From: Thermoleophilia bacterium
GTDB taxonomy: Bacteria; Actinomycetota; Thermoleophilia; Gaiellales; Gaiellaceae
Length of the DNA: 36,337 bases
Direction: 5' to 3'
Assembly (NCBI GenBank): GCA_023382435.1
Contig: JAHDVS010000029.1
Coordinates: forward strand, 1 to 36,337
Shown here: positions 24,515-29,810 of the stretch, in pieces
How positions within the stretch are numbered: position 1 is the stretch's first letter
How the letters are laid out: every line of letters begins with the position of its first letter
Notes under the pieces: model-generated
Told to the model about the DNA's origin: nothing
Database searches by the model: none
What the model saw: only the letters and a program-made list of their open reading frames with translations
Program-made: the position numbers and the translations under genes

Positions 24515-24680
24515 CCGTGTCAACCACATAGGGCGAGCGGCGCAGGGAAGCCGGTGCAAGTCCGGCACGGTCCCGCCGCTGTAAGGGGAGATGCCCGTCC
24601 GCCGAAGTGCCACTGGCCCCGTGCCGGGAAGGCGGCGGAGGGGGGAGCCCCGAGTCAGAAGACCTGTCGCGCGCCCCGCA
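24515..24680 (+). ncRNA. Cobalamin riboswitch
   Basis: The leader contains the conserved core of the AdoCbl/cobalamin class in order: ATAGGG-type entry, AGGGAAGCCGGTGCAAGTCC and the partner GGCACGGTCCCGCCGCTGT, the B12 box GCCACTGG at 24609-24616, GGGAAGGCGGCGG, GAGTCAGAAGACCTGTCGC at the 3' end. High cobalamin should lower expression of the six genes that follow, probably by occluding the AAGGAGG ribosome-binding site at 24697-24703. No T-tract terminator is seen, so translational control fits best. Outer boundaries are approximate, since the P1 helix was not resolved. Confidence 0.93.
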
Positions 24681-24707
24681 CCCGTTCCCCTCGAGGAAGG
24701 AGGAAAC

Positions 24708-25364
24708 GTGCTTCGACGCACCACCCTCGCAGCTTTCGCTCTCGCTCTCGCGGCGGCGCTCGCGCTCCCCGGCACGGCGCTCGCGCTCTCGGTCCACGTC
24801 CGCGTGGAGGGGCCGAAGGGCACGCACTTCGGCGCCCGCCAGCCGCTCGTGACCCCGTTCACCGGGACGATCGCCGGCGACGGCGGCGACGTCGAGCTGG
24901 CCGAGCCGACGGCGCTCGGCGCACTCGAGGCCGCGAGCATCGCCGGCGACTTCTACTACCACCTGCTCGTCTCGTCCTTCGGCCCCTACGTCGCCCAGGT
25001 CGGCCGCACGCCAGGGGAGGGCCCGAGCGGCTGGGTCTACAAGGTCAATGGGGTCTCGCCGCCGGTCGGCGCCGACGCGTACGAGCTCGAGCCGGGCGAC
25101 GAGGTGCTCTGGTACTACGCGACCTTCGGGGACACGGGCGGGCCGCTCACGCTCGACCTCGACAGGGTCGCGCGGGGCTGCTACCGCGCCTACAAGGTGA
25201 ACGATCTCGGCGAGCGCAGCTTCGTGCGCAAGGTCGCGTTTCTCCTCGACGGCCGCTCCGTCGCGTCGAAGAGCGGGCGGCTGTGCCCGACCGGGCACTG
25301 GCACACGCTGCGGGCGACCAAGGACAGGCTCGTCCGCTCCGAGGAGATCACCCGCCGCCGCTAG
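24708..25364 (+). CDS. Secreted DUF4430 (transcobalamin beta-domain-like) protein
   Basis: 218 aa, GTG with AAGGAGG 4 nt upstream. Residues 1-26 form a signal peptide (hydrophobic run, cleavage near PGTALA). DUF4430 spans about 66-141: TALGALEAA, YYHLLVSSFGPYVAQVGRTP, S107-GWVYKVNG, PVGADAYELEPGDEVLWYYA. This fold is shared with the C-terminal beta domain of animal intrinsic factor and transcobalamin. A 75-residue C-terminal extension has two Cys (158, 193) and basic residues. No lipobox or membrane anchor. First gene under the cobalamin riboswitch, so the protein most likely binds corrinoid outside the membrane. Ligand binding is inferred from fold and regulation. Confidence 0.88.
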   Translation: MLRRTTLAAFALALAAALALPGTALALSVHVRVEGPKGTHFGARQPLVTPFTGTIAGDGGDVELAEPTALGALEAASIAGDFYYHLLVSSFGPYVAQVGRTPGEGPSGWVYKVNGVSPPVGADAYELEPGDEVLWYYATFGDTGGPLTLDLDRVARGCYRAYKVNDLGERSFVRKVAFLLDGRSVASKSGRLCPTGHWHTLRATKDRLVRSEEITRRR

Positions 25365-25378
25365 GGGCAGCGACCGTC

Positions 25379-26209
25379 GTGCGCAGACTCGCTCTCGCGG
25401 CTCTCGTCCTCGCACTCGCTCTCGCCCTCTCCGGCTGCGGTGGCTCGACCGCCGCCGGCGAGAGCGGGAGCGAGGACGGTGGCAACGCGGCCACCGCCAG
25501 CATCGGCGTGGACACGGCACGTTCGAGCACCGCGGTCATGGACGCGGTGAGCGAGGCCGAGGGGGCTCGGGTCTGGGTGACGCGCGATCGGGGCGCGGAA
25601 GTCATTCTGACGGCCGATGTCCCGGCGGGCCTGACCGTGCTCCGGGCGCTCGACCGCGCCGCCGAGATCGAGACCCGCTACGGCGGGCGCTTCGTCCAGT
25701 CGATCGAGGGGATCGAGGGCAGCCTCAGCGGCCGGCAGGACTGGTTCTTCTTCGTCAACGGGATCGAGCCCGACGTCGGTGCCGCCGAGATCGCGCTCGG
25801 ACCGGGCGACGTCGCCTGGTGGGACTTCCGCCCGTGGGCGGAGACCATGCGCGAGCCCGTCGTCGTCGGCGCCTTCCCCGAGCCGTTCCTGCACGGCTTC
25901 GCGGGTAAGCGGCGCCCGTGGGTCGTCGAGGCGCCGGCCGGCATCGAGGCCTCCGCGCTCGAGCTCGTGCTCGGGCCCCCGGGCGGAGCAGGGGAGCCGA
26001 ACCGGTTCGTGGTCGCGTTGAGCGCCGGTGCGGCCGGTGCGACGTTGACGGCGACGCGCGGGGAGGCGAACGACTCGCCGGTCGAGTTCCGGCTCGAGGG
26101 CTCCGAGCCCGCCGTTCGGGCGGCGCTCGCGGCGCTCGTCGTCGATCCGGCGATCGTCCGCCACCGGTACACGGCCGAGTTCGACGAGCGCGGGAACGTG
26201 GTCGGATGA
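25379..26209 (+). CDS. DUF4430-like lipoprotein with extra C-terminal domain
   Basis: 276 aa from the GTG at 25379, 14 nt after the previous stop. The signal ends in the lipobox L17-S-G-C20, so the mature protein should be tethered to the outer face of the membrane after an acidic Gly/Ser linker. Residues 78-152 match the DUF4430 pattern: AGLTVLRALDRAA, YGGRFVQSIEGIEG, DWFFFVNGIEPDVGAAEIAL, GPGDVAWWDF. Residues 155-276 are an unassigned region containing VVGAFPEPFLHG and a beta-rich end. It probably receives corrinoid and passes it to the ECF transporter encoded next; its last bases overlap ecfT (ATGA). Confidence 0.85.
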   Translation: MRRLALAALVLALALALSGCGGSTAAGESGSEDGGNAATASIGVDTARSSTAVMDAVSEAEGARVWVTRDRGAEVILTADVPAGLTVLRALDRAAEIETRYGGRFVQSIEGIEGSLSGRQDWFFFVNGIEPDVGAAEIALGPGDVAWWDFRPWAETMREPVVVGAFPEPFLHGFAGKRRPWVVEAPAGIEASALELVLGPPGGAGEPNRFVVALSAGAAGATLTATRGEANDSPVEFRLEGSEPAVRAALAALVVDPAIVRHRYTAEFDERGNVVG

Positions 26210-26910
26210 AGCTCGCGACAGTCCCCGCAGCGCTCCTGTTCGCCGCCGCCGCGGCCGCCGCTCTGCTCGCGGAGCACCTGGCGTCGGTTGCGGTCCTCTT
26301 CGGGCTCCTGCTGGCGTTGGTGCTGGAAGCGCCCGTGCGACGCAAGCGCCTCTACCTGATCGGCGCGCTCGCCTCCGGCCTGGGTGTGGTCGTCGTGTGG
26401 CCGTTCGTGGCGGTGCTCGGCGAGGACGTGCTCTGGCGCGGCCCGACGGTGCCCGTGCTCGGGGTCATCGACATCACACGGGAGGAGATCGCGGCCGGGA
26501 CGCTCGCCGGGCTTCGGCTGGCCGCGGTCGCGCTCGCGTTCGCGGCGTACGCGCTGCTGCTCGACCACGACCGGTTGCTCGCCTCACTCGGCTTCGCGCG
26601 CCGATCCGCGTTCGCGGCGGTTCTGGCCACGCGGCTCGTGCCGACGCTGGAACGCGACGCCGCGGCTCTGGCCGAGGCGGTTCGGGGCCGGGGCCTCGAG
26701 CTCGATGGGGTGCGCAGCCGCGCCATGCTCGTCTCGCCGCTCGTCTCCGGCTCGCTCGAGCGAGCGCTGAACCTGGCGGAGGCGATGGAGGCTCGCGGGT
26801 TCGGACGCGCCGGGCGCACGCGGGCGCCGCGGCCCGCTTGGGGCGCTCTCGACCGGGTCGCTGCCGGGTCGGCCCCCCTCCTCGTCGTGGCGGGTGTGCT
26901 GTGGCTCTAG
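26206..26910 (+). CDS. ECF transporter transmembrane component EcfT
   Basis: 234 aa. Four to five hydrophobic helices (residues 4-38, 46-72, 100-125 and a C-terminal helix) and the two cytoplasmic Ala-Arg-Gly type coupling motifs seen in EcfT proteins: LAEAVRGRGLEL and AEAMEARGFGR, which contact the ATPases. DHDRLLASLGFARRSAFAA is the usual preceding segment. Starts by a 4-nt overlap with the lipoprotein gene and ends 10 nt inside the ATPase gene. Together with the ATPase and S component this makes a complete dedicated (group I) ECF importer. Confidence 0.88.
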   Translation: MKLATVPAALLFAAAAAAALLAEHLASVAVLFGLLLALVLEAPVRRKRLYLIGALASGLGVVVVWPFVAVLGEDVLWRGPTVPVLGVIDITREEIAAGTLAGLRLAAVALAFAAYALLLDHDRLLASLGFARRSAFAAVLATRLVPTLERDAAALAEAVRGRGLELDGVRSRAMLVSPLVSGSLERALNLAEAMEARGFGRAGRTRAPRPAWGALDRVAAGSAPLLVVAGVLWL

Positions 26911-28277
26911 TCGCCGTGGAAGGAGTCTGCTTCACCTATCCGGGCGGCGGGCGGGCGGCGCTCGAGGACATCTCGCTCGAGCTTCGGCGGGGCGAAGTCG
27001 TGGCTCTGCTCGGCCCGTCCGGGGCTGGCAAGTCGACTCTCGTGCGGGCGCTTGCCGGGCTCGTGCCCCACTTCCACGGGGGCAGCTTCAGCGGGCGCGC
27101 GACGGTGGCGGGGTATGACACCCGCGAGGCGCGCCCCGCCGACCTGGCCGGCACCGTCGCGACCGTGTTCCAGGATCCGGAGGATCAGATCGTGATGGCT
27201 TCCGTCGCGAACGAGGTGGCGTTCGGGCTCGAGAATCTCGCCACGCTGCCGACTGAGATCCCCGCGCGCGTCGAGGAGGCCCTGGCGGCGGTCGGGGCCG
27301 TTCACCTCGCCGGTCGCCGGACCGCGGAGCTCTCGGGCGGGGAGCTGCAACGGGTCTGCCTCGCCTCGGCGCTGGCGCTGCGCCCGCGCCTGCTGCTGCT
27401 CGACGAGCCGACCTCGCAGCTCGATCCGGAGGCCGCGGAAGCGTTCCTCGACGCGGTGGGGCGGCTCGGCTCGGCGGTCGTGCTCTCGGAGCAGCGCACC
27501 GGCCGCGCGCTTGCGCTCGCCGAGCGCGTGCTCTTCGTCGACGGGGGCCGGCTCCTGCTCGACGCTCCCCGCGAGGAGGCGCTCGGCTGGCTGGCCGCCA
27601 ACCGCCCCGCATTCCTCCCGCCACCCGACCCGGCCGGCCAGGTCCTCGCGGGCCATGTCCGGGTGCCTGGCACCGGGACATGGCCGGAGGGGGCACCCGC
27701 GGTCGAGATCGCCGGCGTGTCGTTCGCCTACGACCGCGTTCCCGTGCTCGACGATGTCTCCCTGACTGTCGACCGCGGCGAGGTCGTCGTGCTCGAGGGA
27801 CCGAACGGGTGCGGCAAGACCACGCTTGCGAAGATCGCCTGCGGCCTGCTCGAGCCGGCCGCTGGGAGCATCCGGCGGGCGGGCCGCGCCTGCTACCTGT
27901 CCCAGGATCCCGGCCGCTACCTCGTACGGGAGCGTGTCGACGAGGAGGTCGCACTCGCCGTTGGCGGTGATCTTCGCCGCGCCCGCGCCGCGCTCGCCAT
28001 GGTTGGCCTCGAGTGGGCGGCCGACCGTCACCCGCGCGATCTGTCGAGCGGCGAGCGTGAGCGGCTCGGGCTCGCCGCCGTCGCTGTCGCGGAGCCGGAC
28101 CTGCTCATTCTCGACGAGCCGACCCGGGGCATCGATCCGGAGCGCAAGGAGGCGCTGGCCGCTTGGCTCGCCGCCTACGCCGAGCTCGGACACGCCGTGC
28201 TCGTCGCCACCCACGACAGGGCGTTCCCGTGCCACCGGCGCGTCTCGATGGCGGCGAAGGAGACTGTCCTTGTCTAG
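26901..28277 (+). CDS. Fused double ECF ATPase (EcfA-EcfA')
   Basis: 458 aa from the GTG at 26901, overlapping ecfT by 10 nt; GTG at 26916 is the alternative. Two complete ABC domains in one chain. First: Walker A GPSGAGKST, Q-loop VFQDPEDQIV, signature LSGGELQR, Walker B LLLLDEPTSQLD. Second, from about residue 270: GPNGCGKTT, YLSQDPGRY, LSSGERERLGLA, LLILDEPTRGID and the switch His in VATHDR. In the first half the switch region reads VVLSEQRTGR, with Glu-Gln where His is usual, so the two sites are not equivalent. The fusion replaces the two separate ATPases of many ECF systems. Confidence 0.92.
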   Translation: MALVAVEGVCFTYPGGGRAALEDISLELRRGEVVALLGPSGAGKSTLVRALAGLVPHFHGGSFSGRATVAGYDTREARPADLAGTVATVFQDPEDQIVMASVANEVAFGLENLATLPTEIPARVEEALAAVGAVHLAGRRTAELSGGELQRVCLASALALRPRLLLLDEPTSQLDPEAAEAFLDAVGRLGSAVVLSEQRTGRALALAERVLFVDGGRLLLDAPREEALGWLAANRPAFLPPPDPAGQVLAGHVRVPGTGTWPEGAPAVEIAGVSFAYDRVPVLDDVSLTVDRGEVVVLEGPNGCGKTTLAKIACGLLEPAAGSIRRAGRACYLSQDPGRYLVRERVDEEVALAVGGDLRRARAALAMVGLEWAADRHPRDLSSGERERLGLAAVAVAEPDLLILDEPTRGIDPERKEALAAWLAAYAELGHAVLVATHDRAFPCHRRVSMAAKETVLV

Positions 28278-28974
28278 GTCGGCCGGGGTGCTCCCGGGCC
28301 GGGCCCGGACGGCGGTGATCGCTGCCGCCGCGTGCGCCTTCGCGACCGGTGTGTGGGCGGCCCTCGACCCGAGCCGATCGGGCATCGCGCTCTTGCTCGC
28401 CGCCGGCGCTCTCGTCGTCGCCGGAGCCGCCTGGCTCGAGACCGGGCCGGGATCGGCGAAGGAGATCGCCGTGATCGCGACGCTCGGTGGCGTCGCCGCG
28501 GCCGGCCGCGTCCTCTTCGCGGCCGTGCCGGGCGTGCAGCCGGTGACGGTGATCGCGGTCGCAGCGGGGGTGGCGCTGGGGCTGCGAGCCGGGATCGGTG
28601 TCGGCGCGATCGCCGCGTTCGCCTCGAACTTCTTTCTCGGCCAGGGCATCTGGACACCCTGGCAGATGCTCGCCTGGGGCGCCTGCGGCGCCGCCGGAGC
28701 CGCGTTCGCCCCGCTCGTGACGAGGCGACTTGCCTTCGCCGTCCTCTGCGCCGTGCTCGGCTTCGGCTTCAGCGCATTCATGGATATCTGGATGTGGCTC
28801 AGCTTCTACCCCCACACCTGGCAGGCGCTCGCGGCGCAGCTCGCCCGGGGTCTCCCGTTCGACGTGGCGCACGCGGCCGGCAACGCCATGCTCGCGCTGG
28901 CCGCCGGCCCGGAGCTGAGGCGGGTGCTCGACCGCTATGGGCGGCGGCTGCGAACGGAGGTCGCGTGGGCGTGA
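28270..28974 (+). CDS. ECF transporter substrate-specific component, probably for cobalamin (CbrT-like)
   Basis: 234 aa from a TTG at 28270, chosen because AAGGAG lies 7 nt upstream; GTG at 28288 has no ribosome-binding site. About six helices. AKEIAVIATLGGVAAAGRVL, PGVQPVTVIAVAAGVALGLR, AGIGVGAIAAFASNFFLGQG and WTPWQMLAWGACGAAGA are typical of actinobacterial ECF S components grouped with cobalamin transport. The riboswitch and the DUF4430 partners support corrinoid as substrate. Overlaps the ATPase gene by 8 nt and the following gene by 10 nt. Specificity is inferred from context. Confidence 0.85.
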   Translation: MSRSAGVLPGRARTAVIAAAACAFATGVWAALDPSRSGIALLLAAGALVVAGAAWLETGPGSAKEIAVIATLGGVAAAGRVLFAAVPGVQPVTVIAVAAGVALGLRAGIGVGAIAAFASNFFLGQGIWTPWQMLAWGACGAAGAAFAPLVTRRLAFAVLCAVLGFGFSAFMDIWMWLSFYPHTWQALAAQLARGLPFDVAHAAGNAMLALAAGPELRRVLDRYGRRLRTEVAWA

Positions 28975-29810
28975 TTGCCAGGTTGGGGACGGTTGCGGCC
29001 GCGGTCTTGGTGGCACTCGCGCTCGCGGCGCCCGCGCAGGCCTCGAAGGCCGGCGCAGCCGACTACCTGCGTTCGCGCCAGCAGTCGAGCGGCGGCTTCG
29101 CCGAGCCGGGGCGCCAGGCCGACCCGAGCGTGACCGCGTGGGCCGTGCTCGGTCTACGCGCGGCGGGGCGATCGGTGCCGGGGGCGGCGCCGTACCTGGC
29201 CGGGAAGCCGTTTCCGACCGCAACCGATCTCGAGCTACGCATTCTCGCGCTTGCCGCGCTCGGCCAGAACGTGAGCGCGCTCGCCGGCCAGCTCGAGGGG
29301 CTGCGGCGCTCGAACGGCATGATCGGGCCGACGCTGAACTCGACGATCTGGGGAGTACTGGCGCTACGGGCCGCCGGCCGTCCGGCCGGCAAGGCCACGA
29401 TCCGCTACCTGAAGAAGGCACAGCACCGCAGCGGCGGCTTCTCGTGGCAGGCGGGCGGAGCACCCGACTCCAACGACACCGCGGCCGCGATCCAGGCGCT
29501 GCGCGCTGCGGGGGTGAAGTCGAAGGCAAGAGTGATCCGCCGGGCCGTCGCCTACCTGCGCAAGCTCCAGAACGCGGACGGCGGCTTCGAGATGAGCGCC
29601 GGGCGTGGCTCCGACGTGCAGTCGACCTCGTGGGCGATCCAGGGGCTGCTCGCCGCCGGCAAAGAGCCCGGGAAGGCCTCCTTCGCCTATCTCCGCCGGA
29701 TGCAGCAGCGCGACGGGAGCTTCCGCTACAGCTCCCGCTACGTCACGACCCCGGTCTGGGTCACGGCCCAGGCGCTTGTCGCCCTCTCGCGCCGCACGTT
29801 CCCGCTCTGA
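28965..29810 (+). CDS. Secreted alpha/alpha-barrel repeat protein (prenyltransferase/squalene-oxidase repeats), transcobalamin alpha-domain-like
   Basis: 281 aa from a GTG at 28965; GGAGG precedes it by 4 nt, and a GTG at 28971 (10 nt) is equally possible. Signal peptide with cleavage near APAQA. The mature 255 residues are repeating helical hairpins with Gly-rich turns: QQSSGGF (39-45), GMIGP (118-122), QHRSGGF (153-159), QNADGGF (202-208), QQRDGSF (247-253). There is no Asp-rich catalytic motif of terpene cyclases (no DxDD), so a binding role is likelier than catalysis. The size and repeat type match the alpha domain of intrinsic factor/transcobalamin. It is the last gene of the cobalamin-riboswitch operon and is not anchored. 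Confidence 0.85.
   Translation: MGVIARLGTVAAAVLVALALAAPAQASKAGAADYLRSRQQSSGGFAEPGRQADPSVTAWAVLGLRAAGRSVPGAAPYLAGKPFPTATDLELRILALAALGQNVSALAGQLEGLRRSNGMIGPTLNSTIWGVLALRAAGRPAGKATIRYLKKAQHRSGGFSWQAGGAPDSNDTAAAIQALRAAGVKSKARVIRRAVAYLRKLQNADGGFEMSAGRGSDVQSTSWAIQGLLAAGKEPGKASFAYLRRMQQRDGSFRYSSRYVTTPVWVTAQALVALSRRTFPL

Follow-up and report, generated by a model that had tools for sequence, protein, structure and literature searches.

A riboswitch-led operon in a Thermoleophilia bacterium probably encodes a corrinoid importer with separate transcobalamin-type capture proteins

In animals, cobalamin is carried by intrinsic factor, transcobalamin and haptocorrin, single chains in which an α6/α6 barrel (alpha) and a DUF4430/ubiquitin-like domain (beta) are joined. 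Expressed individually, the alpha and beta domains of human transcobalamin assemble around cobalamin, and the isolated beta domain binds the vitamin alone (PMC5599065); beta binds first and alpha then closes (PMC11107200), and a system with the two domains on separate proteins is therefore chemically plausible. In a published note, the C-terminal region of transcobalamins is classed as DUF4430 (PMC4350170), and the likeness is already on record at the domain level. The closest bacterial importers are BtuFCD and the energy-coupling factor (ECF) transporter ECF-CbrT of Lactobacillus delbrueckii (PMC5997447); the literature searched, which covers the animal carriers, CbrT and BtuFCD, describes no transcobalamin-like system in bacteria. 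Here, we describe an operon from a Thermoleophilia bacterium of the family Gaiellaceae, located in a stretch of 36,337 nucleotides (assembly GCA_023382435.1, contig JAHDVS010000029.1, positions 1 to 36,337), hereafter called the window. The operon is probably a corrinoid (B12-type) importer, in which separate transcobalamin-type alpha and beta modules would clamp the ligand outside the membrane and pass it to a CbrT-like S component. Its parts are as follows:

24544-24665, + strand: cobalamin riboswitch aptamer RF00174 (Rfam cmscan, 89.1 bits, E 6.1e-21)
24708-25364, + strand: g1, secreted DUF4430 (transcobalamin beta-type) protein of 218 amino acids (PF14478, E 2.4e-12)
25379-26209, + strand: g2, DUF4430 lipoprotein of 276 amino acids (PF14478, E 3.4e-12; lipobox LSGC)
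26206-26910, + strand: EcfT (CbiQ family) membrane subunit (PF02361, E 2.9e-9)
26901-28277, + strand: fused EcfA-EcfA double ATPase of 458 amino acids (two ABC_tran stretches, E 2.3e-56)
28288-28974, + strand: CbrT-like S component (PDB 6fnp chain A, phmmer E 4.8e-13, residues 61-202; weak match to PF12822)
28971-29810, + strand: R, secreted α6/α6 repeat protein of 279 amino acids (SQHop_cyclase/Prenyltrans repeats; N-terminal hydrophobic signal)

The six genes are packed behind the riboswitch on the + strand, the last ending at 29810, and neighbours either overlap by 4-10 nucleotides or are separated by gaps of 10-14. This is the arrangement claimed in the initial annotation of the window, and the RF00174 match and the Pfam, NCBIfam and PDB assignments agree with it. 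The g1 gene has a GTG start codon with AGGAGG ahead of it, and its product carries a hydrophobic signal at the N-terminus. The g2 protein has a C-terminal extension of ~100 amino acids, and its lipobox cysteine is kept in most of 30 homologues. The ECF set is full, comprising EcfT, two EcfA domains and an S component related to chain A of 6fnp, a structure that we take to represent the ECF-CbrT transporter of vitamin B12. None of the six proteins matches PF01497, the BtuF-type binding protein. We file the operon as a variant of the CbrT-type ECF importer that carries a capture module of the transcobalamin type. The related S component, EcfT and two EcfA domains are shared with ECF-CbrT, whereas here the operon encodes an ECF module of its own, in which EcfA is fused, as well as extracytoplasmic proteins dedicated to the system, and the S component of some relatives is fused to an extracytoplasmic barrel. 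With the animal carriers the operon shares the beta domain, a barrel of the general α6/α6 fold and a probable cobalamin role, the last suggested by its riboswitch and transporter context. In contrast to the animal carriers, whose single-chain domain order is matched by Firmicutes relatives, the two domains are encoded by separate genes, there is a second, lipid-anchored beta protein, the alpha sequence is nearer to terpene cyclases, and an ECF transporter stands in place of receptor endocytosis.

The strongest functional evidence in the analysis is a swap with BtuF-FecCD in sister genomes. Among 22 genomes of the window's own family (f1), 11 have DUF4430 without a strong FecCD match and 11 have strong FecCD without DUF4430 (Fisher 2.8e-6, uncorrected for relatedness), and opposite states occur within one genus twice (G003 against G085 in the genus labelled g2, and G110 against G101 in the genus labelled g11). 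Both importer types occupy one syntenic site, flanked upstream by HAD and VanZ-like genes on the opposite strand and downstream by cinA and pcrA. The riboswitch leads a PF01497 binding-protein gene in the three BtuF-type genomes examined (3/3), and a FecCD gene lies ~1.0-1.1 kb after the riboswitch in nine BtuF-type genomes. A specific match to R is present in all 11 DUF4430 genomes, the copy in G117 being partial, whereas the 11 FecCD genomes yielded either nothing or fragments in long frames fitting squalene-hopene cyclase. This is an in-place, non-orthologous replacement of the B12 importer, and the earlier proposal that the operon would replace the BtuF-type binding protein is supported by the 11:11 exclusion at the same locus. 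The window's operon and BtuFCD share a riboswitch-led locus and the same inferred role, but no common protein except for generic ABC ATPase similarity. In the rest of the class, where FecCD serves other substrates too, the anticorrelation of DUF4430 and FecCD was not significant (17/28/28/24, p 0.15). Regulation, parts, the replacement of BtuF-FecCD, the alpha-beta and alpha-S linkages and the fold were all established from sequence and genomics.

The physiology of the host is in keeping with this role. Its genome (2.73 Mb, 96% complete) contains a sole cobalamin riboswitch, the one at 24544-24665, and g1 and g2 are its only DUF4430 genes. Six matches to the B12-binding domain were found in the genome, and none to FecCD/BtuC or to CbiC of corrin ring synthesis; the soil bacterium therefore uses B12, probably cannot make the corrin ring and manages without BtuFCD. 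The operon is the best candidate for its corrinoid supply. The same observations bear on the substrate, which might be a precursor or a piece of the corrinoid (cobinamide or a lower ligand, for example) instead of complete cobalamin. Salvage genes are also under the control of cobalamin riboswitches, which would suit uptake of a precursor. Cobinamide is, moreover, bound by CbrT and the human carriers (PMC5997447). Nevertheless, we consider a precursor importer quite unlikely, given that the genome has six B12-binding domain matches and no CbiC or other candidate importer was found (CobS/CobU lay outside the search), and that the operon takes the place of BtuF-FecCD.

The association of these genes with cobalamin riboswitches, which the initial annotation had put forward as a point to be looked for, extends well beyond the window. 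DUF4430 is present in 56 of 119 genomes of the class Thermoleophilia, and at least 42 of the 73 DUF4430 clusters in these genomes are preceded by RF00174 in the same orientation, in most cases at a distance of 170-370 nucleotides; a PF13243 repeat match lies within 9 kb of DUF4430 in at least 27 of the 73. By our estimate, at about two riboswitches per genome, far fewer than one such pairing would be expected, and the association is not due to chance. The operon, with cobalamin riboswitches, is found across Thermoleophilia, in other classes of the phylum and in Firmicutes. At the DUF4430 loci sampled in the phylum outside the class, most are adjoined by EcfT, EcfA and an S component, about half have R, and most have cobalamin riboswitches, one of which is of the AdoCbl-II type. 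A search with a g2 profile brought up the operon in Gaiellales and Solirubrobacterales and, among Firmicutes, in Syntrophomonadaceae, a Desulfovirgula, a Thermosediminibacterales genome and further members. Seven of the 11 Firmicutes loci scanned have a cobalamin riboswitch, and three of the other four start inside the first gene. One locus (L142) carries tandem cobalamin riboswitches, at 283-466 and 528-695, ahead of a single operon. Another genome (L195/L203) has EcfT-EcfA-S-R-DUF4430 genes with a nearby riboswitch on the opposite strand (L203:5575-5768, - strand); regulation may differ there, as the riboswitch faces the other way.

Relatives connect the parts of the operon in various fusions and adjacencies, which thus link alpha to beta and alpha to the transporter. 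One open frame encodes both the S component and R in Solirubrobacterales (12 + 25 loci in two sets, some shared; ~37), and the linker or flank between them holds a hydrophobic stretch equivalent to the signal of the window R, which is consistent with R sitting outside the membrane. Eleven Firmicutes chains fuse alpha repeats and DUF4430, usually with alpha first as in the animal carriers; the fused chain is the first gene of the Firmicutes operons, and some of these chains bear S-layer anchoring domains. In L050, DUF4430 and R also form a single chain, with beta before alpha. In family f3, g1 adjoins R in one operon and the lipoprotein-ECF genes form another, in many cases with a riboswitch for each, and L134 and L116 have an additional R, bearing SLH-type repeats, next to the S component or the ATPase. 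R was found somewhere in 14 of 15 DUF4430 genomes checked, most of which had been picked because R seemed to be lacking or was unclear next to DUF4430. In several cases the seeming absence came down to a contig break or an unlinked copy.

The fusion of R to the S component in Solirubrobacterales could also be read in another way, with the operon still importing a corrinoid but only the soluble and anchored DUF4430 proteins binding it, and R serving as a docking or scaffold subunit of S that makes no contact with the ligand. The top fold and sequence matches of R, which are not transcobalamin, would fit a scaffold, as would the binding of cobalamin by human beta in isolation (PMC5599065). However, in family f3 (L053, L054, L057, L059, L060, L062) R comes after g1 and not with the transporter genes, Firmicutes and L050 join the alpha repeats to DUF4430 in a single chain, and a model of such a two-domain chain matches the animal carriers best, all of which makes a purely structural R improbable. 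The model in question, of the fused Firmicutes chain of L134 (L134:1954-4563), used 28 sequences (pLDDT 83). By Foldseek, its 14 best PDB matches, at E 3e-9 to 1e-7 over ~450 columns, belong without exception to intrinsic factor, transcobalamin or haptocorrin; terpene cyclases follow at 1e-4. Its beta domain fits 5np4 with an rmsd of 1.8 Å over 106 columns. At the sequence level, the top PDB match of the g1 family profile is transcobalamin-2, which is marginal (E 0.05). No transcobalamin was matched in the PDB by the single g1 and g2 sequences or by the g2 profile, and a sequence search with the profile of the fused Firmicutes chains matched terpene cyclases and Ig-like domains and no transcobalamin.

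The window R itself gave an AlphaFold2 model of 12 helices arranged in an α6/α6 toroid (pLDDT 97.3). Several results must be set against a clamp of transcobalamin type. By sequence, R is closer to squalene-hopene and other terpene cyclases than to transcobalamin alpha; squalene-hopene cyclases also rank first in Foldseek (E 8e-10), ahead of two transcobalamin matches (6e-6 and 9e-6), and VIA-align gives a Z of 28 to squalene-hopene cyclase. A strict DxDD motif is present in 21 of 45 R homologues (alignment A4) and drifts in the others. With both domains taken together, the L134 model shows an rmsd of 11-15 Å to the carriers and does not reproduce the ligand-bound arrangement, although such a mismatch is not surprising for a model that is ligand-free. 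One genome, G077, has DUF4430 and no R was found in it. Finally, S components of the ECF type usually work without a binding protein.

R taken alone fits terpene cyclases better than transcobalamin, so its identity as an alpha module rests on context and fold. The best 50 VIA-align matches of the alpha part are terpene cyclases and sugar enzymes, and transcobalamin is absent there, which does not exclude a match to it; PF01122 matches two of 33 R family members (best E 0.053). Judging from the models, the likeness of R to transcobalamin alpha would be that of a widespread toroid fold and not specific. As to the structural match to the alpha domain considered in the initial annotation, transcobalamin is among the Foldseek matches, but terpene cyclases rank higher. 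Its statement that R lacks a cyclase motif is true of the window R, where the DxDD-like site reads DSND and the central acid is lost, and not of the whole family, in which 21 of 45 keep DxDD. That retention, with squalene-hopene cyclases as the best sequence and fold matches, would be expected if R were an envelope enzyme, terpene-cyclase-like or glycosidase-like, whose position in the operon is incidental. An enzymatic role is nevertheless very improbable, because R has an N-terminal secretion signal, is fused to the CbrT-like S component or to DUF4430 in relatives, and is gained and lost together with DUF4430; the motif, DSND in the window R, also drifts freely. The R fold and the cyclases probably share ancestry. 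The host encodes a separate, full squalene-hopene cyclase elsewhere (G000:C2:123394-124335), so R is not its only toroid of that fold. All 45 R domains match NCBIfam NF053823, the SCO2321 family membrane protein (best E 4e-35), the window R falling below the curated cut-off. The family has no assigned function; the link to corrinoids is new here, and its members may be corrinoid-uptake proteins.

Taken together, the riboswitch, the CbrT-type S component, the swap with BtuF-FecCD, the Firmicutes alpha-beta chains and the alpha-S fusions support the original proposal of a split transcobalamin-like capture system on an ECF importer, and suggest a model of how it may operate. None of the outcomes that the proposal had named as refuting it was encountered. 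When cobalamin is scarce, the riboswitch would permit expression of the operon. The DUF4430 (beta) module would take the corrinoid first, outside the membrane, and R would then close over it, as the domains of animal transcobalamin do, here as separate proteins. The membrane-anchored g2, together with an R positioned at the S component or close to it, may form the receiving clamp. From there the corrinoid would pass to the CbrT-like S component, and EcfT and the double EcfA would power its import with ATP. Free g1 is probably a scavenger of corrinoid in the wall space, acting with R or g2. In this model we infer corrinoid binding, its sandwiching between the modules, the order of hand-over and the way in which g1 and g2 share the work.

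The operon, the swap, the Firmicutes alpha-beta chains and the S-R fusions appear to be new within the literature searched. ECF transporters are described as working without a separate binding protein, and a CbrT-like S component served by a conserved set of alpha and beta proteins of its own outside the membrane would be new for this class of transporter. Exchange of B12 is a shaping force in soil and anaerobic communities, and the system would explain how Gaiellales-type bacteria without BtuFCD acquire the vitamin; it also offers a likely function for bacterial DUF4430 proteins, for a large repeat family and for NCBIfam SCO2321. Since no prokaryotic counterpart is described in the literature searched, the origin of the animal B12 carriers also becomes testable. 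Their descent from such a system is possible. As a tentative scenario, about which we remain doubtful, bacterial clamps would predate animals: a cell-surface alpha-beta protein, kept in Firmicutes, would have been split in Actinomycetota, where it feeds an ECF transporter, and intrinsic factor, transcobalamin and haptocorrin would descend from such a protein.

Some relatives have other proteins near the lipoprotein. At six loci from other Actinomycetota classes (L189, L190, L191, L193, L194, L200), a large secreted protein replaces g1 between the riboswitch and the lipoprotein. Read by eye from its sequence, it has the look of a PQQ-type β-propeller, which brings to mind BtuG, a β-propeller protein of Bacteroides; it might represent another type of protein for corrinoid capture. 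In L188, DUF4430 looks to be fused to such a propeller. Frames of 1538-1839 amino acids with several DUF4430 domains lie ahead of the lipoprotein-ECF genes at L197:1833-6446 and L198:6910-12426, and L197 has an AdoCbl-II riboswitch. A locus labelled Bifidobacterium breve (L122) carries a Solirubrobacterales-like operon with an S-R fusion, and the label is probably wrong.
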